From: a virus
Length of the DNA: 33,460 nucleotides
Reading direction: 5' to 3' (one strand)
IMG/VR virus record: IMGVR_UViG_3300035701_000160
Span: 1-33,460 of that record
Part shown: positions 2,365 to 20,011 of the stretch, piece after piece
Position numbering within the stretch: the first letter of the stretch is position 1
Layout: the number at the start of each line of letters is the position of its first letter
Made by a program: the position numbers and the translations under genes
Notes under the pieces: model-generated
The model's input: only the letters and a program-made list of their open reading frames with translations
Told to the model about the DNA's origin: nothing
Databases searched by the model: none

Positions 2365-2422
2365 ATCAGGTGTCTTTGAACTAGGGTTCGGAGGCGAAGC
2401 GGGGGGGGCAAGGCCTTGCTAG
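2312..2422 (+). CDS. terL: Terminase large subunit, N-extein fragment
   Basis: A 36-residue frame starting with MSQFTWRPNPGPQEAF, the usual N-terminus of this terminase type (W-x-P-x-P-G-P-Q), and reaching the beginning of the P-loop at GFGGEAGG. It then runs into TAG at 2420. GGAGGA lies eight bases upstream of the ATG, so the start is well supported. The rest of the terminase lies in the -1 frame. Re-reading one base in the run of eight G at 2401-2408 gives GGEAGGGK followed directly by the intein. The sequence is therefore either a single-base homopolymer error, a true frameshift mutation or a programmed -1 shift at the G-GGG-GGG heptamer that is in phase here. Confidence 0.75.
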   Translation: MSQFTWRPNPGPQEAFHKSGVFELGFGGEAGGARPC

Positions 2423-3474
2423 TTGACACACCGATCTGGACTGACAAGGCTTGGCAGACGATCGGAGATCTGACGACAGAGGATCGTGTTGTTGCTGTAG
2501 ACGGTTCTTGGTCAGAAATCGAGTATGTCTCTGAAGTATACACCGACCACAAGTGCTATGAAGTCGCATTTAGCAACGGTGAAGAGATCGTTGCTGATGC
2601 AGATCATTTGTGGAAGGTAATTGAAACTGGGCAGCACTTCAAGCAACATCGTCAGTACATCGACTATACCGAAGGTACCTTTACAACTGAACAGCTGTTG
2701 ACGAGAGGCGTCTACGTTAAGCTACAGAACCGACATGGACAGTTGTCGAAACGTTTCAAGCTTCCCCACACGGACGGATACGAGGGAGCTCAGCAGAGTT
2801 TACCAGTGGATCCATATGTCTTTGGGTACTGGTTAGGTGACGGGAGTGTCCATACTGGGTACTTTACAATTGGAAACCAAGACCTAGAGGAAGTGGTCGA
2901 ACTGTTCAAGCTTCGAGGATTAACGCTTGAACACCTTTCACAAAAGTACAACTACAGGGTTGAGCCGTCAATCAAACGCATCCTTGACGCTCTCGAGGTT
3001 ACTCGTTTTCAAGGTGAGACGCGCGAAACGGTGCCCGAGGTTAAGCACATTCCCTTGCAGTACTTCATGGCATCGCGAAGTCAACGTCTTGAATTACTCC
3101 GTGGGTTGATGGATAGTGATGGGCATTGTCAAGAACGTGGACGATGTGAGGTTAGTCTTACTGAAACAACGTTAGCTAATGATGTATGTACTTTACTGTC
3201 TTCCCTGGGTTTCAAGTATAGTAGGAGTGTTGCACCAAGTAGCTTCAATGGAGAATCATTTCCATCGCACCGAATGACGTTTACACCGAGAATCAAAGTT
3301 TTCAACATCAGACGCAAGGGAGAGAGTCAGATTCTGACACCTCCCAAGGAACATGACATTGCGGTTTGGATTGAGTCGATTGAGTCGACCGACATTGTCC
3401 CCACGAAATGTATACGTATAAAGCACCCGAGTCACACGTTTTTGGTCGGACGTACAATGATTCCGACTCACAAC
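2413..3474 (+). other. Class 3-type intein with LAGLIDADG endonuclease in TerL
   Basis: A 354-residue intein beginning ALLVDTPIW and ending THN, followed by Ser+1 of the C-extein. Residue 1 is Ala, not the Cys or Ser used by class 1 inteins. The WCT set of class 3 inteins is present: Trp67 two residues after block B His65 (DADHLW), Cys333 in block F (TKCIRI) and Thr352 before His353-Asn354. In class 3 inteins the block F Cys forms the first branched intermediate. A two-motif LAGLIDADG endonuclease lies between the splicing halves: GYWLGDG at 138-144 and LRGLMDSDG at 229-237, each with its acidic residue. The insertion point is the Walker A loop, between GK and S, a typical intein target. Splicing would restore GGEAGGGKSES. 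Confidence 0.85.
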
Positions 3475-4725
3475 TCGGAGAGTCTCCTTGTAGAGGCCCT
3501 TCGGTATGTGCATGTCCCAAAATACACGGCAGTTCTCTTCCGGCGAACGTTCCCAGAGCTTTCACAACCACGAGGACTAATCACGAGAGCACATGAGATT
3601 TGTCCACTCTTCAAGGGTACCTACAATAAACAGGATCATGTATGGACATTTCCCAGTGGCTCAGTACTTCAGTTTAGCCATTTAGAGCACGAAGAGGACG
3701 TCCACAATTGGCAGTCAGCGGAGATCGCATACGCAGGGTTCGATGAACTGACATCGTTTACTGAATATCAGTTTATGTATATGCAGAGCCGTGTTCGTAC
3801 TGTTGCAATTGACCCGATAACACACCAAGTAGTTCCGGCAAGGGTCCGGTGGGCATCGAACCCGGGTAATGTCGGGCATGAGTGGGTTTTCAATCGTTAC
3901 AAGCCTTGGTTGACACGCATCGAAGTTGAGGGTGAACCGAGATGGCCAAGTGGAGAGGTTCACTACTTCAAGACTAAGGACGAAAAAGACATACGAACTA
4001 CTTGGGATGACCAAGACGCGTTATCTCGATCGTTTATTCGGTCTCGTCGATTTGACAACCCTAAGCTGATGGAAGTAGATCCTGGTTATGAAGCTCGTCT
4101 CCAGGGCTTACCGTTAGTGATCAGGATGCAATTGGCCGAGGGCGATTGGGATATTGTCGCCGCGGGGAATGTATTCCATGCAGACTGGTTCAAAGTTATC
4201 AACGAAGTACCCACCGGACTTAGGTGGTTCCGTTATTGGGACTTAGCAGCATCACTCAAAGCACGTGCAAGCTTTACTGCGTCAGGAGCTGTTGCAGTTA
4301 CCAAGACCGGTGACATCATCATACGGGACATGATCCGGAAGAAGATTGAGTGGCCGGATCAAGAAAAGCTCATCAAGCAAACGATCTTAGGCGACGAAAC
4401 TGTTGTCGAAACGGGAATCGAGAAGAAACTCCACGGGATCGCTGCAGTTCAAACGTTCATGAAGGATCCCGAACTTACTGGTCACCGGATCGTCGGTGTC
4501 GACGTTGACACGGACAAACTTTCGAGGGCTTTAGACTGGTCGTCGAAAGCAGAAGCGGGACAGGTTTATCTTGTAAATGGTCCATGGATTCAGTCGTTTC
4601 TCACGGAGTGTTCACTATTTGACGGAATGGGAAAGACTCCTGACGACCAGGTAGATACAATATCTGGTGGCGTCAGAATGGCGGCATCACCTAAATGGCG
4701 AACAATGAAGTTTCTGCACTTGTAG
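2416..4725 (+). CDS. terL: Terminase large subunit: intein plus ATPase-nuclease body
   Basis: This frame encodes the intein (to 3474) and then 416 residues of the packaging motor. The C-extein starts SESLLVEALRYV, completing Walker A. Walker B is IAYAGFDEL, with the catalytic Glu after Asp. The C-terminal RNase H-like nuclease shows three acidic motifs: RYWDLAAS, VGVDVDTDK and DDQVDTISGG. The spliced protein would be about 450 residues, normal for the family. The protein cuts concatemeric DNA and pumps it into the prohead through the portal. The listed first codon (TTG) is not a real start, because the protein must begin at 2312 in the other frame and reach this frame by a shift or because the G-run is miscounted. 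It overlaps the portal gene by 31 bases. Confidence 0.9.
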   Translation: MLVDTPIWTDKAWQTIGDLTTEDRVVAVDGSWSEIEYVSEVYTDHKCYEVAFSNGEEIVADADHLWKVIETGQHFKQHRQYIDYTEGTFTTEQLLTRGVYVKLQNRHGQLSKRFKLPHTDGYEGAQQSLPVDPYVFGYWLGDGSVHTGYFTIGNQDLEEVVELFKLRGLTLEHLSQKYNYRVEPSIKRILDALEVTRFQGETRETVPEVKHIPLQYFMASRSQRLELLRGLMDSDGHCQERGRCEVSLTETTLANDVCTLLSSLGFKYSRSVAPSSFNGESFPSHRMTFTPRIKVFNIRRKGESQILTPPKEHDIAVWIESIESTDIVPTKCIRIKHPSHTFLVGRTMIPTHNSESLLVEALRYVHVPKYTAVLFRRTFPELSQPRGLITRAHEICPLFKGTYNKQDHVWTFPSGSVLQFSHLEHEEDVHNWQSAEIAYAGFDELTSFTEYQFMYMQSRVRTVAIDPITHQVVPARVRWASNPGNVGHEWVFNRYKPWLTRIEVEGEPRWPSGEVHYFKTKDEKDIRTTWDDQDALSRSFIRSRRFDNPKLMEVDPGYEARLQGLPLVIRMQLAEGDWDIVAAGNVFHADWFKVINEVPTGLRWFRYWDLAASLKARASFTASGAVAVTKTGDIIIRDMIRKKIEWPDQEKLIKQTILGDETVVETGIEKKLHGIAAVQTFMKDPELTGHRIVGVDVDTDKLSRALDWSSKAEAGQVYLVNGPWIQSFLTECSLFDGMGKTPDDQVDTISGGVRMAASPKWRTMKFLHL

Positions 4726-8561: not shown

Positions 8562-10248
8562 AGATGGTCCCGCGAAGACTCCCGTTTGTGTCTACAAGAA
8601 GGATACTGGTGCAAAGGTAGGATGTACCACGGTGGCAAAGAAGAAGGCCTACCTCGCCGCCCTGAATGCCAATGCGAAGAGCGCGATCGATGTGGAAGCG
8701 ACTGTCGAGTTCGAGTTGCCAGATGAGCTCGACCTCACCCCACTGTTCGCGGAGTCTGATTCGAACATCCAATTCTGTTCGCTCTTCATCACGAAGGCAG
8801 TGCAAGACTCTGACGGGACGCGTCGTATCAAGGCCGTCGCGAGTGACACCTTTGAGGACACGTTTGGACAGCGGATGACCCTATCTCTCTTCCAGGACTT
8901 CCTGACCCGAATTGCAGAGGACATGCCAGCTCCACCTCCCTACGGTTCGGCGGCTTGGAAAGGTGGTATGCCCTACCTGAGCGTCGCGCACTATCTTGAT
9001 CAGGGTGGCCAGGCAGTCGTTGGTACACCGACGAATGTGTGGGTCGACGATAACCATTTTCGGTTCAAAGCCGATATGGCCAAGAGTGCCCTTGCTGAGA
9101 AGGCATGGGGTGCAATCAAAGCGGACATTGCGGACAACGTTCCCGACGAAAAGCGGGTACGTGTTAGCATCGCGTTCATCGATTGGGAACATGTCCATGC
9201 GGACGGAACACACTTCGCACGCAAGAGTATTGTGGAGGTGTGCCCTGTGTGCATCCGCGGCGCGAAGCTCAAGGAGTATGTCAAGGGGCAACTTGTTCAC
9301 TTTGCCCTTACGCGGGTGCCTATAAACGTGAGGACGCCCATCATGATCGAGAGATCCAGTGTGGACGGTGTTATCAAAAGTAAGAAAGACGACGCCGCAG
9401 CGATTGTTGGTGAAGACCTTGCGGAGGAGCTCGACAAGCGAGAACGAGGCACGGTCGTCGACAAGAGTGCTGCTGCGGTTGTTATTCGGGCTGACGCGGT
9501 GGTCACACCGACGCCAGTAGCGGTTGTTAGTGTGGTGGACGCAGCTAACAAGCCGTATGGTGGTGCTACGACTTTGGCCGGAGCTTTGGATTACATAACT
9601 GCTCAGAGGTTGACCTGGAAGTTTTCAGATCTCTTCTGGACGGTTCGCGATGTGATCTGGAATGCAATCGACAGTCCTATGGTGTCTGAGAAAGCCGCCG
9701 CGATCGAAGGGATCCTAGGAGAGATGCAGGACCAGTTTTCACAAGAAGCATTGATGGCCTTGTCGAAAGTCTCCACTCCAGTACCAGTAGTACCAGTAGT
9801 ACCAACAGTAACAAGTCAAACGGAGGTGTCAACAATGTTGAAATCTGACCATCCGTTAGCTGCTCAACTGGAGGCAATCGCCACGGCCTATGACGGCGTG
9901 GTAATGAAGAGCGATCTCACTCGTACTCAGAAGTTCGAACCGATCCAGAAGGCCCTGGATGCTCTGGGTCTTACGATCAGGAGTGCAGTGAACGCGTCGA
10001 CTCCGACTTCCACGGCGGACGTGGAGGAAACAATTCGACGTGTGCTGGGTGAGATGCTGCCAGCGTTCATGCCCGCATCGGTTCCTGTAGCTAACGGATC
10101 ACAATCGCCAGCGCCTCGGCAAGTTCAGCCTCAGGCGGCGGCGACGTTTAGAGCGACTGCTGCGGCGGACGCTAAGCCAAACCAGTTGAGAGATTTGGCT
10201 CGGCGGTCCGTCGGTTTGCCAGTCGGGGAGGGAGTGCCCAATGTCTGA
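8542..10248 (+). CDS. Prohead protease fused to scaffold
   Basis: A 568-residue protein. The N-terminal segment (PYTVREDGPAKTPVCVY, then GC and a Lys-rich helix) is a small module often seen at the start of phage proteases. The middle, about residues 70-260, resembles capsid maturation proteases: VRVSIAFIDWEHVH, then LVHFALTRVPINVRTPI, which matches the family's end motif of L-x-x-x-S/A-L-x-x-x-P-x-N. A long acidic, Ala/Val-rich region and a Pro/Val linker (about residues 413-426) follow, then a scaffold-like helical C-terminus. The start at 8542 has GAGAGG upstream. It overlaps the capsid gene by eight bases. The catalytic Ser and His were not assigned. Confidence 0.65.
   Translation: MPYTVREDGPAKTPVCVYKKDTGAKVGCTTVAKKKAYLAALNANAKSAIDVEATVEFELPDELDLTPLFAESDSNIQFCSLFITKAVQDSDGTRRIKAVASDTFEDTFGQRMTLSLFQDFLTRIAEDMPAPPPYGSAAWKGGMPYLSVAHYLDQGGQAVVGTPTNVWVDDNHFRFKADMAKSALAEKAWGAIKADIADNVPDEKRVRVSIAFIDWEHVHADGTHFARKSIVEVCPVCIRGAKLKEYVKGQLVHFALTRVPINVRTPIMIERSSVDGVIKSKKDDAAAIVGEDLAEELDKRERGTVVDKSAAAVVIRADAVVTPTPVAVVSVVDAANKPYGGATTLAGALDYITAQRLTWKFSDLFWTVRDVIWNAIDSPMVSEKAAAIEGILGEMQDQFSQEALMALSKVSTPVPVVPVVPTVTSQTEVSTMLKSDHPLAAQLEAIATAYDGVVMKSDLTRTQKFEPIQKALDALGLTIRSAVNASTPTSTADVEETIRRVLGEMLPAFMPASVPVANGSQSPAPRQVQPQAAATFRATAAADAKPNQLRDLARRSVGLPVGEGVPNV
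9835..10248 (+). CDS. Nested scaffold protein, internal start
   Basis: Inside the protease gene, GGAGGT at 9822-9827 lies seven bases before an in-frame ATG at 9835, a stronger ribosome binding site than that of the full gene. Initiation here would yield a 137-residue protein identical to the C-terminus of the fusion: helical, polar, Ala/Pro-rich, as scaffolds are. It starts right after the Val/Pro linker, a natural domain border. This is the arrangement of lambda C and Nu3, in which the internal product is the scaffold around which the capsid protein assembles. Translation from the internal start is inferred. Confidence 0.65.
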   Translation: MLKSDHPLAAQLEAIATAYDGVVMKSDLTRTQKFEPIQKALDALGLTIRSAVNASTPTSTADVEETIRRVLGEMLPAFMPASVPVANGSQSPAPRQVQPQAAATFRATAAADAKPNQLRDLARRSVGLPVGEGVPNV

Positions 10249-11440
10249 TCTACAGGGCGAACTCATCCTCGACCTCGCATCGGCTGGACACAAAGATACG
10301 TTCGTGGCAGGCCAAGCGCCGGCCGCGGTGGTGATGCGTTCCGCCGATCCTAACATCTTCCCACCCTATGCTCTGCCGATCGACTTCGCGGCTCAGTTCC
10401 CCACACCACTCGACACTACCGAAATCATCGCGATGTGCGAGGAAACGACGCTGCTCAAGTTCATCCCGGAAGAGGGTACGGGTCTGAAGACCGTGCTATG
10501 GCGTGAGCTAAACGAGCTCGCGTTCACGTCCGGTTCGGTGTCAATCAGCTTTGCCGATGGTACATGCCCCGAAGAGTTTCGACACGATGGTGACAACTCG
10601 TACATTGACCTCAAGAACATCGGCATCAAGAAGACTCTGGGCCTCAGCGACATCATGCACTCGGTCGCCTCGATCGGCGCTGGCTATGGCATCAGTGCCC
10701 TGCTCGGGCCGCATCCGTCGGGTGCTGGCATGCCAGGTGGCGGTGACGTCGCCACGTTCACGATGACCAACATCGCAAATCTGAAAGAGAAGGAGATGCA
10801 GCTAGGCGAGATCCTGGTCTTGAATGGCTGGGACAACCTTCTCGTGAACGGCGACCACACCATCAATGCCCTCGAGCCCGACGGCATCGTCAAGCTCCTG
10901 GCAACCGGTTCGTGCTCGGCGACGTCCACGGGCACGTTCGACGCTCTCAGCTACAACCGCTTCCTGGGCGAGAACTGCATCAAGCCGCAGGTCATCATGG
11001 GCCACCCGGCCGCGATCCAAGAGATGATGTCTGCGTTCTTTACGCTCGGTTGGGCTGGAACCGGTAATGGTTCCATACAAGTCATCACCTATCCCAACGG
11101 CAACCGCATCACTCCAGGATACAACTTTGACTCATTCGTCAACACTGGAGTCGGGCGTATTCAAGTCGTTGGCGATACCAACTTCCCGCGGACGGATAAC
11201 CTCAACGGGACGTTTACCGCTCGCCTCTATGGCCTGCGCATGACTCACAACGGGGTCAAGTTGGTGTACCGGGCTACGCAGATTCCGTTGGCCTTCAAGG
11301 ACCTGACTCCCGGGTGTACCACCATCGCGTTCGAAATGTGGGCGAAGACCGCTCTCATCATCAAACACAAGTGCGCTCACAGCGTCTACTCCGCAGTCTT
11401 CTCTGGCAACATCCGAACCTGCTGCCCAGTAATCCTGTAA
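10241..11440 (+). CDS. Major capsid protein
   Basis: A 399-residue protein following the protease-scaffold gene with an 8-base overlap and a GAGGGAG ribosome binding site, the usual position for the coat protein. Its length fits an HK97-fold coat. The N-terminal 70 residues are polar, and a Gly-rich stretch follows at about 150-170. The long alpha-beta core (MTNIANLKEKEMQLGEILVLNGWDNLLVNG) is consistent with a capsid A-domain. The C-terminus is Cys-rich (HKC, CC), as if disulfides or metal binding were used. The call rests on synteny and size; HK97-fold residues were not identified. A hairpin follows at 11449. Confidence 0.75.
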   Translation: MSDLQGELILDLASAGHKDTFVAGQAPAAVVMRSADPNIFPPYALPIDFAAQFPTPLDTTEIIAMCEETTLLKFIPEEGTGLKTVLWRELNELAFTSGSVSISFADGTCPEEFRHDGDNSYIDLKNIGIKKTLGLSDIMHSVASIGAGYGISALLGPHPSGAGMPGGGDVATFTMTNIANLKEKEMQLGEILVLNGWDNLLVNGDHTINALEPDGIVKLLATGSCSATSTGTFDALSYNRFLGENCIKPQVIMGHPAAIQEMMSAFFTLGWAGTGNGSIQVITYPNGNRITPGYNFDSFVNTGVGRIQVVGDTNFPRTDNLNGTFTARLYGLRMTHNGVKLVYRATQIPLAFKDLTPGCTTIAFEMWAKTALIIKHKCAHSVYSAVFSGNIRTCCPVIL

Positions 11441-11448
11441 CCAAGTAT

Positions 11449-11469
11449 GGGCGAGCCGCAAGCTCGCCC
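11449..11469 (+). terminator. Hairpin after the capsid gene
   Basis: GGGCGAGC and GCTCGCCC form a perfect 8-bp GC-rich stem around the loop CGCAA, nine bases after the capsid stop. It is followed by TTACT and not by a T-run, so it is probably a partial terminator or mRNA stabiliser that lets the downstream genes be expressed less than the capsid gene. Loss of transcript after it is inferred. Confidence 0.5.
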
Positions 11470-11471
11470 TT

Positions 11472-11534
11472 ACTCCGCTCTCTATGAGAGTCCAATCGCT
11501 GTGAGATACCCCACCATCTCATAGCGAGCGGAGT
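11472..11534 (+). promoter_or_regulatory. Two mutually exclusive hairpins before the glycosylation island
   Basis: A long inverted repeat pairs 11472-11489 (ACTCCGCTCTCTATGAGA) with 11517-11534 at 17 of 18 positions around a 27-base loop. A second stem pairs 11497-11507 with 11516-11526 at 10 of 11 positions. Both use bases 11517-11526, so only one can form. The long stem also covers a GGAG at 11530-11533, part of the ribosome binding region of the first glycosyltransferase. The layout is that of a switchable leader. No known riboswitch family was recognised. Confidence 0.45.
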
Positions 11535-11543
11535 GAGGGAACT

Positions 11544-12254
11544 GTGAGTTACGTAGTTATAACGCCAACTCTAAACCGATCAACACGTATGCTTCAAGCG
11601 ACTCAGAGACTGTTCGAGTCAGTGCGGGAACACGAGATTACGGTGTATGCAGTGTTTGATTCGGACGACACGGAGAGCGTCGAGTCGGTGCGCAAGTTGT
11701 TTCCGCAGGTGCGTCGGATAGTAGTAACCCCTCCGGCTACGCCAATTTACAAGTGGAACGAAGGACTTAGGGAAGCAGCGAAAGACTCGAACATGACACA
11801 TGTGGTACTCGGAGCCGACGACGTTAGCTGGCATGATGGATGGCTCGACGAAGTTTCAAAGGTCAGTTCAGGACTCGTGGGTCTGAATACACTCGAGTAC
11901 GGAGAGAGGCACTGTACACACTTTGTGCTTACACGACAGTTTATTGTTGAAGTCAACGGTGGCGTGATCTTCACACCCCATTACAAACATCTCTTCGCCG
12001 ACAATGAAATATTGGCTCGGGCACGACAAGTTGGGGCGTTTCAATATTGCCCCAACGCAATAGTAGAGCATCTACATCCTGCTCACGGCAAAGCCCGTCT
12101 TGATGATACATATACGCGGGCAACGGCTTTCTGGAATGAGGACCAAGCGACTTACGAGCGTCGTGTGGCAACAAACTTTCCATGTGATTACGAGGCAGTA
12201 TGCACCCTTTCGTCGTCTATACCTATTACTACAGAAATAGTTCAGCAGGCTTGA
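11544..12254 (+). CDS. Glycosyltransferase, family 2-like (GT-A)
   Basis: A 236-residue protein starting with GTG at 11544; GAGGG lies four bases upstream. The N-terminal YVVITPTLNRSTRMLQATQRLFES is the usual GT2 beginning, followed by an Asp-rich strand (AVFDSDDTESV) and the metal-binding-like GADDVSWHDGWLDE. The C-terminal half has the acceptor-side pattern NEILARARQVGAFQYCPNAIVEHLH. GT2 enzymes transfer a sugar from a nucleotide sugar to an acceptor. It opens the island and overlaps the next gene by 55 bases. The sugar and acceptor cannot be told. Confidence 0.75.
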   Translation: MSYVVITPTLNRSTRMLQATQRLFESVREHEITVYAVFDSDDTESVESVRKLFPQVRRIVVTPPATPIYKWNEGLREAAKDSNMTHVVLGADDVSWHDGWLDEVSKVSSGLVGLNTLEYGERHCTHFVLTRQFIVEVNGGVIFTPHYKHLFADNEILARARQVGAFQYCPNAIVEHLHPAHGKARLDDTYTRATAFWNEDQATYERRVATNFPCDYEAVCTLSSSIPITTEIVQQA

Positions 12255-13201
12255 GAGCTTGCCACCTGCTTGTGCATCGTTTGAATGCTCTTGGCGTGGC
12301 GGCGTACTCATCTCAAGCACTCGTCAATCCTGAGTGGAATGAGCCAGTATGGCAGTCGCAAAGTGATCCGTTTATCGCTGTCTACCCTGAGGTAGTCCAT
12401 GGCAATCCACTCAATGCAAAGTACGTCATTCGCTGGTTACTAAACTATCAGGGCAGACTTGGTGGACCGAAGGAGTATCCAAGTAGTGATTTGGTCTTTG
12501 CCTATTCCGGCGATATTGCTGCCGCCGCCCCTCGCGTTGATGGGCTATTGTATCTATCAATCGTTGAGGATGAGTTATTCTTTGATCCGGGCGATGTGCA
12601 GCGCGAAGGAACGTACTATTGGGTTGGTAAGGGACAAAGGCCAGTGAAGCCGCAAGGTGTCGAGATTACTGCTGGGTGGCCCGCAACTCGAGCCGAACTT
12701 GCTAAATTACTTCAGTCCGCAGCCCTCCTAGTAACTTACGACGATTATTCCTCATTGACTGTCGAGGCAGCACTTTGTGGGTGTTTGACAGTACTTGAGC
12801 CAGGATCTCGTCTGTACGATCGAGTCGAAGTTGTTACCGCTCATCGTAAGCGACAAAGTGAAACTGCAAAGCAGCTAAATGAGTTTGTTGAACTCGCGCG
12901 ACGTCTTACTGGCGAGTCCAGTCCAGCAATCGCAAGCACAGTAGTAGCCCCGGTAGTGGCCGCACCCACTTCGGCAGTCTTGCTAGTACGTTTTGGCTTG
13001 GGTCGCGAGCTTATCGAGGGCCCCGTCACCAAGAAACAGTACATTTTTTATTGCCGTAACAACATCTGTGCGTCACCGGTAGATCCACAGGACGTTTCGA
13101 GACTACTCGAGATGATGGGTGCGTGCTGCGGTGAAGCGCCAAAGAGGAAGAAGTTTCACGCCGCAAACCAATCAGAGGAAATTCGGTGGTATCAATTGTA
13201 A
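12200..13201 (+). CDS. GT-B-like glycosyltransferase fused to a small phage domain
   Basis: A 333-residue protein. Residues 1-235 look like a GT-B glycosyltransferase: SAGLRACHLLVHRLNALG at the N-terminus and a sugar-nucleotide site YDDYSSLTVEAALCGCLTVL near 180-199. An Ala/Val/Pro linker (246-257) joins it to a C-terminal domain (258-312) with LVRFGLGRELI, KKQYIF, PVDPQDVSRLL and ACCGEA. A closely similar layout forms the separate 98-residue protein at 21109, so this fusion combines a sugar-transfer enzyme with a domain also found in the tail module. The domain may target the enzyme to the virion. It overlaps genes on both sides. Confidence 0.6.
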   Translation: MHPFVVYTYYYRNSSAGLRACHLLVHRLNALGVAAYSSQALVNPEWNEPVWQSQSDPFIAVYPEVVHGNPLNAKYVIRWLLNYQGRLGGPKEYPSSDLVFAYSGDIAAAAPRVDGLLYLSIVEDELFFDPGDVQREGTYYWVGKGQRPVKPQGVEITAGWPATRAELAKLLQSAALLVTYDDYSSLTVEAALCGCLTVLEPGSRLYDRVEVVTAHRKRQSETAKQLNEFVELARRLTGESSPAIASTVVAPVVAAPTSAVLLVRFGLGRELIEGPVTKKQYIFYCRNNICASPVDPQDVSRLLEMMGACCGEAPKRKKFHAANQSEEIRWYQL

Positions 13202-13824
13202 TTGTAACTTTTGGCAGGCCGGACCTAATTGCAAAGTTCTTTGGTTGTATTCCAACGCCCTCGTGCAAGCATGAATACGTTGTAGTCGACAACATGCCAA
13301 GTGAAACGACGCGACGAGTTCTTGAAGGTATCTCCCAGCAGCGCCCAGTACGACTTGCATTCAACGAGTCGAACGTTGGCTTCGGTCCTGCTTGCAATCA
13401 AGGAGCTCGTCTCGCGCAATACAATACTCTCGTGTTTACACAGCCCGATGTTACCTTTATGGAGGATGTGACCCCCAAAGTTGTGAACCTAGCGGATGGA
13501 ACTCTCTATGGCGCACGTCTCATTACGTTTGACACAAGTTGGAACCGGTTTGGGTCTACGATCATCTCGTACTTAGAAGGGTATTTCCTGGCGTGTACGC
13601 GTCCGACCTGGACCGTTATTGGTGGATTCGACCCTCAAATTGTTCCGGCTGACTACGAGGATGTTGATTTATGTTATACAGCAACCCAGAAGGGCGTGCA
13701 GCTACGCGAACTGCCAATTCGTGCGAGTCATGTCTGGGGTGCCCATTGGAATGGTAATCCTGGAAGACAAGCTATTACAATGCGCAACCGTGCGTACTTT
13801 GCCCAAAAATGGGGCTTTGCATAA
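13186..13824 (+). CDS. Glycosyltransferase, family 2 (GT-A)
   Basis: A 212-residue protein starting with GTG at 13186, with GAGGAA upstream, and overlapping the previous gene by 16 bases. It shows the GT2 pattern: VSIVIVTFGRPDLIAKF at the start, then VVVDNMPSE, then ESNVGFGPACNQGARLA, the substrate loop shared with rhamnosyltransferase-like members, and PDVTF in place of DxD. GGFDPQIVPADYEDVDLCYTA near residue 150 is the usual GGFDE-x-F-x-x-Y-x-E-D-x-D-L motif, slightly altered. It probably adds a hexose or deoxyhexose; the acceptor is unknown. Confidence 0.8.
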   Translation: MVSIVIVTFGRPDLIAKFFGCIPTPSCKHEYVVVDNMPSETTRRVLEGISQQRPVRLAFNESNVGFGPACNQGARLAQYNTLVFTQPDVTFMEDVTPKVVNLADGTLYGARLITFDTSWNRFGSTIISYLEGYFLACTRPTWTVIGGFDPQIVPADYEDVDLCYTATQKGVQLRELPIRASHVWGAHWNGNPGRQAITMRNRAYFAQKWGFA

Positions 13825-13835
13825 AGGAGTGTAAC

Positions 13836-14060
13836 ATGATCAAGTTTTGGGAGTTGCTTCAAGAGAGTGTGATCATTCAAGGTGTTGTGACGTTGGTGTT
13901 GGTCGTGACTCTCTGTACGATGTTCATCACCGGGAAGCCGATTCCTGAATTGCTCGGCGCGATCACAACGTTGGTGTTGGGATTTTGGTTTGGCACGAAA
14001 TCACAACGGGCCATCGTTACAGCGACCAAAGCAATGGCGGAGTCGAAGCACAGTAAGTAA
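13836..14060 (+). CDS. Small two-helix membrane protein, holin-like
   Basis: A 74-residue protein with GGAG six bases upstream of its ATG. It has two hydrophobic segments, at about residues 12-30 (VIIQGVVTLVLVVTLCTMFI) and 40-53 (LLGAITTLVLGFWFG), with a short charged loop between them and a basic, Lys-rich C-terminus. This topology fits a small holin or a membrane anchor. A holin normally sits with lysis genes and no endolysin is visible nearby, so a membrane role in the glycosylation system, for example next to a lipid-linked sugar, is an equal possibility. No family was identified. Confidence 0.45.
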   Translation: MIKFWELLQESVIIQGVVTLVLVVTLCTMFITGKPIPELLGAITTLVLGFWFGTKSQRAIVTATKAMAESKHSK

Positions 14061-14072
14061 GGAGTAAACAAG

Positions 14073-14963
14073 GTGGGAATGAAAGTTGTTCTTAGTGGTG
14101 TGTATTACCCGATGGCCATCGTGCGCTACTTTGAAAGGGCGCTACGACGCAGGGACGACATCGAACTCTGTACCGTCGGCCGCTATACTGGGAAGACGAT
14201 CCCGTGGAATGGCGGTATGATTCTCAATGTATCCGCACCGCCACCCGACCTGGTACTGACCAGCTCTCGTACTCCAATCAGTTACGTCGAGGCGCACCTA
14301 TTATGGAAGCCCGATGTGTGGATTCAACTCAACTCGACGGAAGGATTGATCGGCAAGCCGTCTAAGGGTAAGAACTTTGTCGTCGGTGTCGATCCACACT
14401 GCATCAACTATGATGAAGCTCGCCAATGGGCAGACGTGTTCTTCTGTATGCAGACACCGTATATGCGTCCTGATGACATTTGGCTACCATATGCGTACGA
14501 TCCTTCGTGTCACACACCGAATACAGACTGTACAAGGGAGCGACCATATGATGGAGGCCTCATCGGAGCACCTTACATCAATCGAGTAAGGCTCGTCGAA
14601 AGCCTACGAGCGCAGGGACACAAGATCCTCTTCCCTGGCTTCGGGCCTGTATTCGGGGAGTATCGTGATCTTTTGCATACCTGCAAGATCGGCCTGAACT
14701 GGTCAACGCAACAAGACCTATGCGCGAGGGTCTTCGAGGTAGCGGCCATGGGCTTGTGCCCGGTTGTGAATCGCGTGCCGGACCTCATGAAGATGGGTTT
14801 CGTCGAGGGCAAGCACTACTTGGGCTTCGACTCCCTCGACGAGGCGCTAAGCCAGTTCAAAGTGGCTCTTGGCAAGTGGCAGGAAATCAGTCAACAGGCT
14901 TGTGAGTTCGTGGCGCCACACACTTGGGACGCTCGAGTCGAGACGGTATTGTCCTATGTCTAG
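14073..14963 (+). CDS. CgeB-like glycosyltransferase (GT-B)
   Basis: A 296-residue protein starting at GTG 14073; GGAG lies eight bases upstream, and the ATG at 14079 is the alternative start. Its plan matches CgeB-type GT-B proteins: an N-terminal domain with KVVLSGVYYPMAIVRYFERAL, then a central linker and a C-terminal domain with FPGFGPVFGEYRDLLHTCKIGLNWSTQ, ARVFEVAAMGLCPVVN and the end pattern HTWDARVETVLSYV. The E of FEVAAMG corresponds to the conserved Glu that holds the nucleotide sugar. The substrate is unknown. It overlaps the next small gene by eight bases. Confidence 0.7.
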   Translation: MGMKVVLSGVYYPMAIVRYFERALRRRDDIELCTVGRYTGKTIPWNGGMILNVSAPPPDLVLTSSRTPISYVEAHLLWKPDVWIQLNSTEGLIGKPSKGKNFVVGVDPHCINYDEARQWADVFFCMQTPYMRPDDIWLPYAYDPSCHTPNTDCTRERPYDGGLIGAPYINRVRLVESLRAQGHKILFPGFGPVFGEYRDLLHTCKIGLNWSTQQDLCARVFEVAAMGLCPVVNRVPDLMKMGFVEGKHYLGFDSLDEALSQFKVALGKWQEISQQACEFVAPHTWDARVETVLSYV

Positions 14964-15213
14964 AGACATTGAGCAGGCAGTGATGCTTCCCAACGGTACC
15001 ACAGTAAAGCGCCAGACTACACTTTGGGTCCGGGAGTGGGGTGCAATGGTTGCAACTGCCCAGTACGACAAGCACTTTATCTATGCAAACAGTGTTGTGA
15101 ATCAGCCATCGTACATGTGCACCTGCGGTTCGTCGGCGGGGGTCGTACCTCGAGGCCCGAATGGCAGATTTCAGTGTCTGTTCCTCTTGAGTACAGGTAG
15201 GCACCAGTCATGA
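14956..15213 (+). CDS. Small CxC protein in the glycosylation island
   Basis: An 85-residue protein beginning at ATG 14956, which overlaps the previous stop by eight bases. Residues 52-60 contain YMCTCGSSA, followed by a Gly/Pro loop and RFQCLFLLSTGRHQS. The C-x-C and the later Cys and His could bind a metal ion. Small proteins with this plan occur in tailed phages, but no function is assigned. It overlaps the following glycosyltransferase by four bases (ATGA), so it is co-translated with the enzymes and may be an acceptor, a regulator or a partner. Confidence 0.5.
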   Translation: MSRDIEQAVMLPNGTTVKRQTTLWVREWGAMVATAQYDKHFIYANSVVNQPSYMCTCGSSAGVVPRGPNGRFQCLFLLSTGRHQS

Positions 15214-15926
15214 GCAAGATCATTGTGCTCCTGAGGACCTTGAACGAGGAGATTCACCTTCCACGCTTTTTGGCTGCATATGACTGGGCTGATCTTATCA
15301 TCATAGCAGATGGTGGGAGTACCGACCGCACATGCGAGATCGCACGAAATACTCCTAAAGTTGAATTGCAACACTTCAACGTCTGGGTAGAGAACGCAAA
15401 AGGGGGCAGGCGCAATCCAGAAGGGCCCCACATGAACTTCCTGCTTGAACAAGCACGTTATGCCTTCCCATCGTGGATAATCATCGATGAAGCCGATTCG
15501 GCGCTTTCGCCCTCACTCAGGCAAGATGGTCGTGCAATCCTCGAAAGCACCGCCGAGCAGTTTGTATTTGCACCGCGGATGTATATCTTCGGTACGGATA
15601 AATGGTTTCCCGATCTAACCGGAGGTAGTGGTTACACTCCAGAAGGTTGGACTGGAATGTGGGCGGTTCGAGGAGATGTGCCGTTAGCATATAATCAAGA
15701 CGAGTCCTGGAGTCCTGATGTTATACAACCCCCTCAGTCAGGATGGACGATTCGGCGAATCACCTATCCTTACGCATTGCTACACTACTTCTGCCTCACG
15801 CCAGAGATCATGGCGCGTAAGCTCGCGCTTTATCGGTCAGCCGGCATGATTCAAAAGAGTTGGACCGAGACAAGTGGTCCGCTCGTGGAGCTTCCGGAAT
15901 GGGCATACCCAACTTATTACAAATAA
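15210..15926 (+). CDS. Glycosyltransferase, family 2-like (GT-A)
   Basis: A 238-residue protein starting in an ATGA overlap with the previous gene. KIIVLLRTLNEEIHLPRFLAA and LIIIADGGSTDRTCEIA are the two opening GT2 motifs, the second carrying the nucleotide-binding Asp. IIIDEADSALSP near residue 92 is in the place of the DxD metal site. The C-terminal half (HYFCLTPEIMARKLALYRSAG) resembles GT2 enzymes that act on lipid or polysaccharide. The donor and acceptor are not known. It overlaps the methyltransferase gene by 28 bases. Confidence 0.75.
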   Translation: MSKIIVLLRTLNEEIHLPRFLAAYDWADLIIIADGGSTDRTCEIARNTPKVELQHFNVWVENAKGGRRNPEGPHMNFLLEQARYAFPSWIIIDEADSALSPSLRQDGRAILESTAEQFVFAPRMYIFGTDKWFPDLTGGSGYTPEGWTGMWAVRGDVPLAYNQDESWSPDVIQPPQSGWTIRRITYPYALLHYFCLTPEIMARKLALYRSAGMIQKSWTETSGPLVELPEWAYPTYYK

Positions 15927-16447
15927 TAGGTCCAGGGATCGAGTCGATGAGGATCGCGAACTTGGGGAGCGGCAAGTCCGACTCACCCGTCAGCTTGCAA
16001 GTTCGCTATCTGCATTGTGCGCTCTTGATGAACGTTGACATCTACAAGCCCTACGTCGACTACTTGCAAACGCAAAAGTTCGCGGCAGGGGTTGTTGAGT
16101 TTACTTGTAAAGATGTCGTATTGTGGCTGGCTGAGCAACCGGAGGGTGAGTATGATGTGGTGCTCCTAATCGATTTGCTCGAGCATTTTGAGCAGGCTCG
16201 AGCAGGGTTCGTGGTGCGACTTTGCAAGCATGTCGCCCGCCGCAAAATCATTGTCTTCTCACCGCTCGGCGAGTGCAAGCAAGGACCGTCTGATGGAAAT
16301 GGCTACCAGAGGCATCTGAGCACATTGACTTCAGCCGGACTCGAAACGTTGGGATTTCGAGTTGAGGTGCTGCCCGCATTTCATAGGCACTTTGACCCGC
16401 CAGTCGATGCGGGGTTAGCAGTTATGGAGGTGGGGGAATGGGATTGA
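15899..16447 (+). CDS. SAM-dependent methyltransferase
   Basis: A 182-residue protein. Motif I is MRIANLGSGKSD, the glycine-rich SAM loop; the acidic turn (NVDIYKPYVD) follows; and YDVVLLIDLLEHFEQA is the motif with the D-x-L-E-H of class I methyltransferases. The start at 15899 is preferred because GGAG lies eight bases upstream; 15947 and 15860 are alternatives. It overlaps both neighbours. In a glycosyltransferase cluster such enzymes often methylate a sugar hydroxyl or cap a glycan, so the likely substrate is the glycan made here. That step is inference. Confidence 0.75.
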   Translation: MGIPNLLQIIGPGIESMRIANLGSGKSDSPVSLQVRYLHCALLMNVDIYKPYVDYLQTQKFAAGVVEFTCKDVVLWLAEQPEGEYDVVLLIDLLEHFEQARAGFVVRLCKHVARRKIIVFSPLGECKQGPSDGNGYQRHLSTLTSAGLETLGFRVEVLPAFHRHFDPPVDAGLAVMEVGEWD

Positions 16448-17469
16448 AAGTAGACTTTTTATGCCCGTCGGGGTCTCCGATTGGTGTCATGCCAGAGGAC
16501 ATCGGGGGTCGCGGAGTTGGTGGAGCTGAGTTGGCTCTCTTGACCTTAGCAGAAGTGCTAACGGGAAGGGGCCATACCGTGACCGTGTTCAATTCTCCCA
16601 GAAAGGAAGGTACATATGGGGGTGTGCCTTACCGCGCAGTAAGCGCGTTTGACCCGAACGCTGATAGGGATGCGGTTGTCCTGTTTAGGTGTCCCGACAG
16701 GCGATTCCAAAGTGCGAAAGGGAGAAGGGTCTTCTGGTCGTGTGATCAATTCACGACAGGCAACTACGCAGCGGACATCTTTCCACACGCCGAGCGTATT
16801 GTTTGTATCTCACCTCATCATGCAGCTGACTTTGAAAGGCGCTACGGAATATCTCAGGAGCGACTGACTGTGATCACCCTAGGTGTACGTACGTGGGAGT
16901 ATATTTCGAATGCTCCCAAGGTCAAGGGTCAATGTATCTATTGTAGCGTTCCTGATAGGGGCTTACGAATCCTACGAAACGTTTGGGATCGCATCGTCAA
17001 GGAGGTGCCATGGGCGTCGTTAGTGATAACGTTCGATTATCGGATGTGGGGAACCGCTGACGAAGGCATCACGCCGCATCGACTTGAGTGGGTGGGTGCG
17101 CCGAATGTCAAGTACTGCGGTCGCGTGCCTAGGTCACAATTGGTACTATTACAGTCGACGTCGGATCTGCAGCCCTATCCTTGTATCTACGACGAGTTGT
17201 TTTGTATCTCTGTCGCTGAGTGTCAGGTAGCGGGGGCAGTGCCCATTACTTCGTCGATGGGTGCCCTTGCAACAACGAACTTGTATGGCAAGCGACTTGA
17301 TGGAGATCCGAGGACGGCTGTGTGGCAGGCAGCGTTCGCAGAGGAAGTTATCAACACGCTTCTGACACCTAATACGCTAACGATTCGTCAGGCTCTTTGT
17401 ATGAACTCTCGCAGAGCAGCGTTCAACTGGGACATCCTCGCCGTGCCCTGGGAGGCGGTTCTATCATGA
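16438..17469 (+). CDS. GT-B glycosyltransferase, family 4-like
   Basis: A 343-residue protein overlapping the methyltransferase by ten bases. The N-terminal domain has GGRGVGGAELALLTLAEVLTGRGHTVTVF, the acceptor-loop and first-helix pattern of GT4. The hinge has IVCISPHHAADFERRYGI and VITLGV. The C-terminal part has DLQPYPCIYDELFCISVAECQVAGAVPITSSMGAL, the nucleotide-sugar site with its Glu. It likely extends the same glycan. It shares a four-base ATGA overlap with the next gene. No donor specificity can be deduced. Confidence 0.8.
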   Translation: MGLKVDFLCPSGSPIGVMPEDIGGRGVGGAELALLTLAEVLTGRGHTVTVFNSPRKEGTYGGVPYRAVSAFDPNADRDAVVLFRCPDRRFQSAKGRRVFWSCDQFTTGNYAADIFPHAERIVCISPHHAADFERRYGISQERLTVITLGVRTWEYISNAPKVKGQCIYCSVPDRGLRILRNVWDRIVKEVPWASLVITFDYRMWGTADEGITPHRLEWVGAPNVKYCGRVPRSQLVLLQSTSDLQPYPCIYDELFCISVAECQVAGAVPITSSMGALATTNLYGKRLDGDPRTAVWQAAFAEEVINTLLTPNTLTIRQALCMNSRRAAFNWDILAVPWEAVLS

Positions 17470-18560
17470 AGATTGGAATCGTCTCCGACTTTGATTTTGT
17501 GGGTTCAGGGTACTTGCATATTGCGACTAACCTGGGGACTGAGTTAGTTCGTCGAGGACATGAGGTCATTGCCTTTGGCATTGGTTATCGAGGTGAGGAG
17601 CATCACTTTCCATATTCAATTGTACCCCTGCCCCGTCAGTCCTTCACACAGGGTGCGAATACGATGGCGAGGAACTTGATTCGTGAGAAGCTTCTCGACG
17701 TAACCATTGTGGCGCTAGACATTCCCATGATCATTCGATTGCTTGGGACCCAGCCAACAATCGAGTTGCCCCACTATGGGGTGTTTCCTGTTGAAGCGCC
17801 GCCACTGACTCAGAACTGGACCGCGGCGTTGTATCAGTTGAAAGGTTGCTTTGTGATCTCCGAGTTCGGGACCGAGGAGTGTCACAAAGTGGGACTAGCT
17901 GCTGAACACGTCGCGATCCCAGTCGACACGAAGTCGTGGAGACCTCCGACACCTGAGGAACGTGTCGCGATTCGACAAGCAATGGGTATTGCGGAGGGAC
18001 AGCGGGTCGTTCTCACGGTAGCCGAGAACCAAGAACGTAAGTTCCTTAGTGCGTCACTCGAGATCATCGCAAGAATGGATAACGTCGTGTACTATATGGT
18101 TACTCGGCGCGACTCAGGTGTTGGGTGGTATTTGGACGACTACATCGTCGAGTTGGGCCTGGCGGGTAAGGTAACTATCGTCGAGAGGGGCATACCATTC
18201 AAACAGCTTTGGTCTTTGTATGCAGCATCTGATGCATTTCTCATAACGTCAAAAGCTGAAGGCTTGGGCATGCCCGTGCTTGAGGCTATGGCATGTGGTG
18301 TATCTGTTGTAGCTCCTAATCATACAGCGTTCCACGAACACCTATCCGGCGATAGAGGTTACCTGTTTTCTTACGCTTACGCGGATCGAGAACCGTTTGG
18401 TAACGGCTGGCGCTATTATGCAGACATCGAAGACGGTGCGCGGGCCTTGGAATGTGCCTTTGCGAACTCAGAATACGTTCATAGCAGGGCACTCGAGTAT
18501 GTGAAGGCTCGAACTTGGGAAGCGGTGGGGGAGGTCATATGTCGCAAGTTGATGTCGTGA
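17466..18560 (+). CDS. Glycosyltransferase, family 4 (GT-B)
   Basis: A 364-residue protein starting at ATG 17466 in an ATGA overlap. It has a complete GT4 layout: GSGYLHIATNLGTELVRRGHEV at the N-terminus, VISEFGTEECHKVGL and VAIPVDTKSWRPP at the hinge, then VERGIPFKQLWSLYAASDAFLITSKAEGLGMPVLEAMACGVSVVAPNHTA, the E-x7-E nucleotide-sugar motif. This is the clearest glycosyltransferase in the island. It overlaps the next gene by 22 bases. The acceptor is unknown. Confidence 0.85.
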   Translation: MKIGIVSDFDFVGSGYLHIATNLGTELVRRGHEVIAFGIGYRGEEHHFPYSIVPLPRQSFTQGANTMARNLIREKLLDVTIVALDIPMIIRLLGTQPTIELPHYGVFPVEAPPLTQNWTAALYQLKGCFVISEFGTEECHKVGLAAEHVAIPVDTKSWRPPTPEERVAIRQAMGIAEGQRVVLTVAENQERKFLSASLEIIARMDNVVYYMVTRRDSGVGWYLDDYIVELGLAGKVTIVERGIPFKQLWSLYAASDAFLITSKAEGLGMPVLEAMACGVSVVAPNHTAFHEHLSGDRGYLFSYAYADREPFGNGWRYYADIEDGARALECAFANSEYVHSRALEYVKARTWEAVGEVICRKLMS

Positions 18561-19333
18561 TCCCGGTCTATGGAAGGCCGGACATGCTTAAAAGTTGTCT
18601 TGAAGCCCTCAAGGCACAGACATTTACAAGCTTTGCGATCACGGTTGTTGACGATGCATCGCCAAAGGGCCTTGTGAGCGAGAACATTGCTGAGCTATGC
18701 AAAGAGTATGAAGCACGTTTATTTGTCAACAGTGCCAACTCAGGCTTTCCGAAGACAGTAAATCGAGGGGCACGCAAGTGCGACGCGCCATTCATGCTTC
18801 TGTTGAACAGTGATGTTATGTTACGTCCTAACGCACTCGAAGTCTTGATAAGCGAAATGGCGGCGCCTGACGTTGGCATTGCCGCACCAATGCTTTTGTT
18901 TGCCGAGAACTCGCCTATGGGACCTGCAGGCAAGATACAGCATGTTGGAATGGCGTTCAACGTTACAGCAACACCCGTTCATATCTTCTTGGGTTGGAGC
19001 GTTGACAATCCGAGAGCCGTAAGGCGTCGGGACGATTGGCCTTGCGTAACAGGAGCATGTTTCCTCACACGTCGCGCAACGTGGCGCAAGGTCGGCGGTT
19101 TTCAAGAAGTTTATGGCAGGGGGACGTTCGAGGATGTGGAGTTCTGTCTTACCGTGCGGAAGGTGCTGGGTCACAAGATCGTTGTGAATCCGGAAGCCAT
19201 TGGAGAACACGTTGTAGGAGCGAGTGCCATCGGCCAACCGGGCGGCAAGGGCTACGATCTACGCGGTAACTTCCAAGTCTTCATTACACGTATGCGCCAG
19301 TTCGTTGAGCATGACGATTACCACTTCTGGTGA
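18539..19333 (+). CDS. Glycosyltransferase, family 2 (GT-A)
   Basis: A 264-residue protein beginning at ATG 18539, with GGGGAGG four bases upstream. VDVVIPVYGRPDMLKSCLEALKAQTF, VVDDASP, NSANSGFPKTVNRGA and LLLNSDVMLRPNAL with its metal-binding Asp are all classic GT2 motifs. Further on, GACFLTRRATWRKVGGFQEVYGRGTFEDVEFCLTVRK is the GGF-x-E-x-F-x-x-x-x-E-D-x-E/D-x motif that holds the acceptor. It closes the island, and the neck genes start three bases after it. The transferred sugar is unknown. Confidence 0.85.
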   Translation: MSQVDVVIPVYGRPDMLKSCLEALKAQTFTSFAITVVDDASPKGLVSENIAELCKEYEARLFVNSANSGFPKTVNRGARKCDAPFMLLLNSDVMLRPNALEVLISEMAAPDVGIAAPMLLFAENSPMGPAGKIQHVGMAFNVTATPVHIFLGWSVDNPRAVRRRDDWPCVTGACFLTRRATWRKVGGFQEVYGRGTFEDVEFCLTVRKVLGHKIVVNPEAIGEHVVGASAIGQPGGKGYDLRGNFQVFITRMRQFVEHDDYHFW

Positions 19334-19336
19334 GAA

Positions 19337-20011
19337 ATGTACTATCCATATAGCACACCCCAAATAATGACAGTACAGAAGTTTGTCGACTACGGTGGAC
19401 ATACTGGTACTGCCTCCGCGTTTTTGGTTCAAGTTGCAATGACGATCGCAGAGCAGCAGATGACGAATGAGTTGCACACCTTTATGCTGCCCACGACCGT
19501 GACCGGTGAGTATCAAGCACCCTGGTGGGACCATCCAATTGAGCTTGAGTTTGGGAACGTGCTTCGCCTTATCACTGGTACGCTCTTGAGTATCCCGACA
19601 GACAATTCGAATTCATTCGAGCTAACCACACCCGTGCGCTTGTTTATTCGAAATGCAGAGGCGGGGCATATTGATGCGGTGCCGAACTGGGACAAGTCTC
19701 ATTGGGAGGAGGATTGGGGTCCATACAAAGTACGGATTGTGTATTGTGCTGGTCACGATACCGGAACCACATTGAACGACCCGAGTTTGTTGACGGCTCT
19801 CACGGCGGCGACCGAGCTCGTGCTCAATGAGTTAGTGGCACCTGGAACGACAGAAGCGCAGATCGGTGTTCAACAATGGTCGTCTTTGAGATACTCCGAG
19901 AAGCGCTATCCGTTGCGGCAAACAGCGTTTGGTTCTTCAGCTCGTGCGAACTTCATTGCAAGCCTTGTAGCCCATCTAAAGGTGTTTCGAGTTGGTCGGT
20001 TTAGACGCTAA
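19337..20011 (+). CDS. Head-tail connector (adaptor) protein, probable
   Basis: A 224-residue protein that begins the neck genes, three bases after the island ends. It is mostly helical, with acidic and Trp-rich stretches (WDKSHWEEDWGPY), and its C-terminal helix (EAQIGVQQWSSLRYSEKRYPLRQTAF then SSARANFIASLVAHLKVFRVGR) fits a protein docking under the portal. Connectors occupy this place between capsid and tail genes in siphophages. No unique motif was found, so the call is from order and size. Confidence 0.45.
   Translation: MYYPYSTPQIMTVQKFVDYGGHTGTASAFLVQVAMTIAEQQMTNELHTFMLPTTVTGEYQAPWWDHPIELEFGNVLRLITGTLLSIPTDNSNSFELTTPVRLFIRNAEAGHIDAVPNWDKSHWEEDWGPYKVRIVYCAGHDTGTTLNDPSLLTALTAATELVLNELVAPGTTEAQIGVQQWSSLRYSEKRYPLRQTAFGSSARANFIASLVAHLKVFRVGRFRR

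Follow-up and report, generated by a model that had tools for sequence, protein, structure and literature searches.

A glycosyltransferase island between the capsid and head-tail adaptor genes of an uncultured phage lineage and its probable role in virion glycosylation

Both the glycosylation of phage virions and the presence of glycosyltransferase (GT) genes after the capsid gene are already known. For the mycobacteriophages Che8, Corndog, and Myrna, glycosylation of capsid and tail-tube proteins by phage-encoded GTs has been reported (Freeman et al. 2023, as described in PMC12363180 and PMC12619734). The chlorovirus PBCV-1 encodes GTs and nucleotide-sugar enzymes, and its capsid glycan, which is assembled in the cytoplasm, consists of a conserved core with decoration that varies (PMC5408694). 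Here we analyze the IMG/VR record IMGVR_UViG_3300035701_000160 of an uncultured phage (33,460 b; the whole stretch is referred to below as the window and is labelled G000 among the compared contigs), in which an island of GT genes at positions 11544-19333 lies between the genes of the major capsid protein and the head-tail adaptor. Results of our analysis indicate that the phage probably uses this island to assemble a glycan of its own on a virion protein, and most likely on one of the head; both the glycan and its target are proposed from the position of the genes and by analogy.

The nearest known kind of system is the mycobacteriophage virion glycosylation, in comparison with which the island described here is larger and lineage-wide. 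Che8 gp109 matches, as a distant relative, the profile of two GTs of the island, assigned by us as GT3 and GT8 (E 5-7e-10, on the order of 1e-10 to 1e-9). For gp108 and gp110, there was no match to any profile of the island core, and none of the three Che8 GTs matches the profile of its CgeB-like GT. The Che8 genes lie toward the right genome end (56.2-58.7 kb of 59.5 kb) and not between the capsid and adaptor genes, with no annotated nucleotide-sugar genes in the stretch seen. While the target of the Che8 enzymes has been reported, that of the window island is a putative one. The GTs encoded between the capsid and neck/adaptor genes of Pontimonas phage phiPsal1 (GT7- and GT3/GT8-like, together with a methyltransferase) and Microcystis phage Mae-JY09 (GT7-like), or just after the capsid gene of phage ctKR88 (GT6-like), resemble those of the island in position, but there are one to three such genes in these phages, as compared to the five-GT core and additional cargo of the island, and according to the records the GT function is putative there too. 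Thus, the statement of the sequence-only reading of the window that most siphophages have no extra genes at this site needs a qualifier.

In the design of a conserved-core glycan, the nearest analogue is PBCV-1, an unrelated eukaryotic virus whose glycosylation genes are not gathered in one head operon; its glycan has been demonstrated on the capsid protein, whereas that of the window phage is a proposed one. Among open papers we found no description of a lineage with a fixed-order five-GT core and exchangeable sugar-nucleotide cargo at the capsid gene in every sampled member. Few cases of virion glycosylation have been described in phages, and the lineage analyzed here appears to rely on it as a whole.

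Conservation and inheritance of the island

Relatives of the window phage were located among viral contigs by means of short conserved patterns. The contigs are mostly fragments, and gene families were assigned in the fetched ones with the use of mechanical open reading frame (ORF) calling and iterated profiles. The search with the capsid protein gave 37 loci and the search with the CgeB-like protein gave 33. Among 35 records, the CgeB-like GT is encoded on the same strand wherever the capsid gene is followed by enough DNA; the profile search was positive in 33 of the 35, and the other two (G014 and G021) both break off only a few kb after the capsid gene. All 24 islands that were read at both ends are placed between the capsid and adaptor genes, although their sizes range from 5.7 to 24.9 kb. 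The comparison of synteny between phages with and without the island, which had been proposed earlier, could be made on one side only, as no contig with an empty site was seen among those compared; in shorter loci beyond the main set, the start of the island is identical in kind, again with no empty site.

Where detected, the core genes always follow the same order. The first is a GT-A enzyme of GT2 type (GT3; 13186-13824 in the window; PF00535, 43.6 bits; 29 of 29 islands), followed by the CgeB-like GT-B enzyme (14073-14963; PF13524, 46 bits; 26 islands) and a small Cys/His-rich protein of ~85 aa (approximately 14956-15213, with the start codon chosen in our analysis; 21 islands). The remaining ones are two GT-B enzymes of GT4 type, GT6 (16438-17469; PF13439, 41 bits; 26 islands) and GT7 (17397-18560, with an alternative start ATG at 17466; PF00534, 50 bits; 27 islands), and a second GT-A enzyme of GT2 type, GT8 (18515-19333; PF00535, 70 bits; 25 islands). 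Two gaps in the CgeB count, in G006 and G029, are misses of the simple ORF caller, as the gene was recovered in both by the profile search, and the Cys/His-rich ORF of the window was likewise missed. The recurrence of one order in 24 islands across the lineage rules out a chance or artefactual origin of the arrangement, and by its position and gene content the island is a hallmark of the lineage. That the core order is kept lineage-wide suggests that these phages build, and probably wear, a complex sugar coat of their own.

Residues of presumed catalytic importance are retained in the GTs: D88, E158, and D159 of GT3 in 97-100% of sequences, and E253 and E261 of GT6 in 96-100%, while R219 and E222 of the CgeB-like enzyme, D34 and D96 of the accessory GT5, R214, K215, E288, and E296 of GT7, as well as D100, E206, and D207 of GT8 are invariant. 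The ratio of nonsynonymous to synonymous substitution rates (dN/dS) of the core GT genes, calculated for pairs of close relatives with unsaturated dS, is ~0.05-0.2 and falls within the range of the capsid gene itself. Judging from these values, the core is under purifying selection. The possibility that the genes are non-functional remnants, named earlier as one that would overturn the glycan reading, is ruled out by the low dN/dS and the kept catalytic residues. In addition, the distances between the core GTs correlate with those between the capsid proteins (r of 0.34 for GT3, 0.49 for CgeB, 0.50 for GT6, 0.57 for GT7, and 0.51 for GT8; permutation p=0.001), as do those of the portal (0.30) and adaptor (0.58) used for comparison; the correlation for GT5 (r 0.27, p=0.07) falls short of significance. 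In terms of these distances, obtained by simple p-distance correction and not from trees, the divergence of the core tracks that of the capsid.

The highly variable accessory content behind the size range of the islands, which includes HNH endonucleases and other cargo, would be expected also of a tolerated insertion site that gathers host-derived carbohydrate genes having no common job for the phage. We consider this explanation very unlikely, as it does not account for a five-GT core with a small protein kept in one order everywhere, with catalytic residues intact, low dN/dS, and a divergence that follows the capsid. No close relatives of the CgeB-like GT were found in one genome per species for 84,980 species or among INPHARED phages by a limited pattern scan, which is not proof of their absence, and a recent host-derived insertion is thus unsupported. 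Since relatives were found by means of short conserved patterns, their absence from genomes or phage records carries little weight.

Sugar-making cargo of related phages

Nucleotide-sugar or related tailoring genes are present in 18 of the 24 complete islands. The cargo of the relatives, inserted between the core genes, includes genes of RfbH, RmlD-like reductases, RmlC-like epimerases, and sulfotransferases. The RfbH family is represented in 18 of 29 islands (14 of the 24 complete ones), and the one representative compared with the NF011936 model scored 596 bits, above the cut-off of 423. The best match of glucose-1-phosphate cytidylyltransferase-like representatives was TIGR02623, and that of cytidine diphosphate (CDP)-glucose 4,6-dehydratase-like ones was TIGR02622, but in both cases the scores were below the cut-off (192-207 vs. 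300 and 141-173 vs. 278, respectively), and one further member scored better with the deoxythymidine diphosphate (dTDP)-glucose model. In five islands (G003, G006, G008, G020, and G030), RfbH, cytidylyltransferase, epimerase/dehydratase, RmlC-like, and RmlD-like genes occur all together. A reductase partner of RfbH was not identified in the islands of the relatives. One subgroup of islands encodes acetolactate-synthase-like thiamine pyrophosphate enzymes and a methyltransferase-like protein.

Read in the light of established pathway knowledge, the RfbH genes and the cytidylyltransferase-like and dehydratase-like genes indicate that this cargo probably serves the synthesis of CDP-3,6-dideoxyhexoses. 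The relatives' RfbH above the curated cut-off, the cytidylyltransferase-like and 4,6-dehydratase-like proteins, and the GT2- and GT4-type enzymes make these islands similar to the O-antigen loci with 3,6-dideoxyhexoses (rfbF-rfbG-rfbH type). Unlike those loci, the phage islands are situated in the head operon and have no recognised flippase or polymerase, and the window itself lacks such sugar genes. It is conceivable, though we propose it only tentatively, that the whole uncultured lineage wears O-antigen-like head glycans, in which an invariant oligosaccharide core made by the five GTs would bear outer sugars that differ from genome to genome, among them 3,6-dideoxyhexoses synthesized by the phages, resulting in serotype-like coats.

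In the window, RfbH and the other nucleotide-sugar cargo genes are absent according to Pfam and profile annotation of the island. The earlier suggestion that host sugars are used is therefore plausible for the window phage but does not extend to most of its relatives, which carry sugar-nucleotide genes of their own. Among the island genes of several contigs, e.g., G009, G015, G019, and G033, ORFs resembling HNH and GIY-YIG endonucleases were noticed by eye (clusters c18, c19, c20, and c44); such endonucleases could help to shuffle the island cargo. The island of contig G010 (L064:13296-17641) contains an ORF similar to class I (E/Q) tRNA synthetases, genes of a sugar-type ATP-binding cassette (ABC) transporter (permease, binding protein, and ATPase), and a weak match to glycoside hydrolase 42.

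The probable target of the glycosyltransferases

The conclusion that so many enzymes would make a glycan in multiple steps is reasonable. As its possible targets, virion proteins, hypermodified DNA bases, and host surface polysaccharide had been named from the sequence of the window, and these three can now be weighed.

The island enzymes might remodel the surface polysaccharide of the infected cell, and thereby change the receptor and block superinfection. Enzymes of GT2 and GT4 type, along with RfbH, RmlC-like, and RmlD-like genes, are characteristic of O-antigen loci, and two relatives encode a membrane protein of 7 segments. However, we recognised neither a GtrA-like flippase nor a polyprenyl-phosphate transferase or polymerase, nor was the Gtr trio (GtrA flippase, GtrB bactoprenol GT, and membrane GT) seen in the window or the other islands, as judged from hydropathy and profile matches only; one weak match links GT8 to the GtrB PHROG (E=0.02). 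The GTs of the window look soluble: strong hydrophobicity is limited to the 83-aa ORF of the island, with borderline segments in two other island proteins. Moreover, expression with the late head operon would be late for a change of receptor, and such a function would not require vertical inheritance together with the capsid. In view of the soluble-looking GTs of the window and the lack of a recognised Gtr-type flippase or polyprenyl-linked enzyme, we regard host polysaccharide as a rather unlikely target.

Certain phage GTs hypermodify DNA (Pyle et al. 2024, as cited in PMC12619734), and the island GTs could in principle glycosylate the bases of the phage's own genome. The window phage encodes, in its near-identical 54-kb sister contig G001, FolE, QueC, and a QueE-like radical S-adenosylmethionine (SAM) protein of the 7-deazaguanine pathway. 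Their genes in G001, that of GTP cyclohydrolase I (L114:1556-2131), the QueE-like radical SAM protein (L114:564-1316), and QueC (L113:19044-19811), are accompanied by a QueD-like ORF recognised by eye. But QueC was detected in 1 of 35 records and not in the remaining 34, by a search in which the control worked, whereas the island is near-universal; this speaks against a coupling of 7-deazaguanine DNA modification to the island as a general rule. The TET/JBP profile matched 0 of 35 records, with its positive control also silent. The five conserved GTs and the variable cargo of nucleotide-sugar genes are easier to reconcile with a glycan exposed on a surface than with an adduct of DNA bases. Since queC is present in a single record and the island in all records able to show it, DNA appears to be an improbable target.

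A virion protein is favoured as the target because of the position of the island in the head operon, the presence of homologous GTs in independent phages, the Che8-type capsid glycosylation, and the scarcity of membrane enzymes, as hydropathy analysis revealed few multi-membrane proteins in the islands. Several points weigh against this explanation. The acceptor and the glycan are putative, with the target proposed from gene position and analogy, and no sequence feature proving a capsid glycosylation site was found. The conserved position could reflect a tolerated insertion site combined with vertical inheritance, though no empty site was seen. The two relatives with the 7-segment membrane protein might use lipid-linked sugars, and one relative has sugar-transport genes in its island. 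The 7-deazaguanine-type genes place DNA modification within the repertoire of the window phage, and the quality of the capsid model described below is moderate.

According to this explanation, the island would be co-transcribed with the head genes, and partial termination at a hairpin at the end of the capsid gene might keep its expression lower than that of the capsid. The five core GTs would build a conserved core oligosaccharide on newly made virion protein in the host cytoplasm, and the accessory GTs and modifying enzymes (in the window, a methyltransferase) would decorate this core in a strain-specific manner. The window phage would draw on sugar nucleotides of its host, while many relatives would make their own, probably including CDP-3,6-dideoxyhexoses. 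Should this prove true, phages would be counted among the few viruses that produce a sugar coat by themselves, and the role of phage glycans in shielding, stability, surface attachment, or host recognition would be testable by the comparison of natural variants.

Genes of the island and its flanks

All ORFs of the island are on the + strand and, as had been seen in the sequence alone, overlap or nearly so. The mix of GT-A and GT-B enzymes, including a CgeB-like one, was borne out by the Pfam families of the core. Of eight GTs called earlier, seven have profile support: GT domains score above the Pfam gathering threshold in the five core ORFs (starting at 13186, 14073, 16438, 17397, and 18515), while the matches of two others are significant yet under the Pfam cut-off. 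One of these two is a GT-A enzyme of GT2 type (11544-12254; PHROG_14945 glycosyltransferase, E=5e-17; PF00535, E=8e-4), for which no relatives were found in viral contigs other than the window phage and its sister contig; the second is GT5, an accessory GT-A enzyme (15210-15926; PF13704, E=1.6e-4) encoded in 16 of 29 islands. The CgeB profile gave chance-level matches only among PDB sequences.

The eighth, a protein of 333 aa (12200-13201), had no match in Pfam, PHROGs, PDB sequences, phages, or plasmids, and no similarity to the other GT families of the island by HHalign. Its N-terminal part, seen only in the phage of the window, comprises 245 aa that by eye resemble GT-B enzymes, a GT identity that every tool used left unconfirmed. 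The C-terminal domain (aa 274-330; 13019-13189) is homologous to a free-standing protein of ~86 aa (tblastn, 38% identity, and alignment), which is encoded in 23 of 29 island contigs, frequently one or two ORFs after the capsid gene. Thus, what is a separate gene in the relatives is fused in the window, as ~60 residues, to the C-terminus of the 12200 ORF. The model of the ~86-aa protein is confident (predicted local distance difference test, pLDDT, 93), and a fold search of PDB with it gave no match.

Two small ORFs were absent from the earlier gene list. The first (13809-14060) encodes a hydrophobic protein of 83 aa, holin-like in appearance only, with one strong hydrophobic segment and a match to a PHROG of unknown function but none in Pfam. 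The second encodes the Cys/His-rich core protein, which is kept in 21 further contigs; its C-x-C motif, a further C, and an H are invariant across 22 sequences, possibly in connection with metal binding, and a Pfam search with one relative gave no match. The call of a SAM-dependent methyltransferase (15860-16447) is a weak one, with a PF08241 match just under the cut-off (20.6 vs. 21.2 bits, E=7e-4); among the compared phages this gene is present only in that of the window.

The gene order in the left half of the window is TerS, TerL, a portal-like gene, a probable protease/scaffold-type gene, and the gene of a 399-aa protein (10241-11440, + strand) that borders the island on the left; apart from TerS and TerL, these genes were named from their position and shared synteny. 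Since Pfam and PHROG models gave no match for the 399-aa protein, its structure was predicted with AlphaFold (alignment of 26 sequences; pLDDT 64, predicted template modeling score 0.64). A Foldseek comparison of the model with known folds indicated HK97-fold capsids and encapsulins (best E=1e-10, prob 1.00), and on the evidence of this model the protein has the HK97 capsid fold. The capsid profile gave chance-level matches only among PDB sequences, and no prophage or host link was found via the capsid. On the right, the gene at 19337-20011 (+ strand) is, by its homologue family, that of a head-tail adaptor (connector): 8 of 23 homologues match PHROG_442 'head-tail adaptor' (best E=1.4e-9), although the window protein itself does not. 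The capsid fold and the adaptor-family matches thus agree with the earlier placement of the island between capsid and connector.

Directly 3' of the capsid stop codon (11444-11474, + strand), there is a stem-loop in a terminator- or attenuator-like position. Among 31 capsid ends, the hairpin proved stronger than each of the 20 shuffled sequences in 27; a U-run often follows it, as seen in several relatives, but is lacking in the window.

Two further observations concern the head gene region. The large terminase of the window (2416-4725) has 769 aa, as compared to ~500 aa in the relatives, and its N-terminal ~250-350 aa match terminase and primase profiles separately from the C-terminal part. 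In contig G021 (L089), two tandem copies of the capsid gene are separated by an ORF of 449 aa, both near the contig end.

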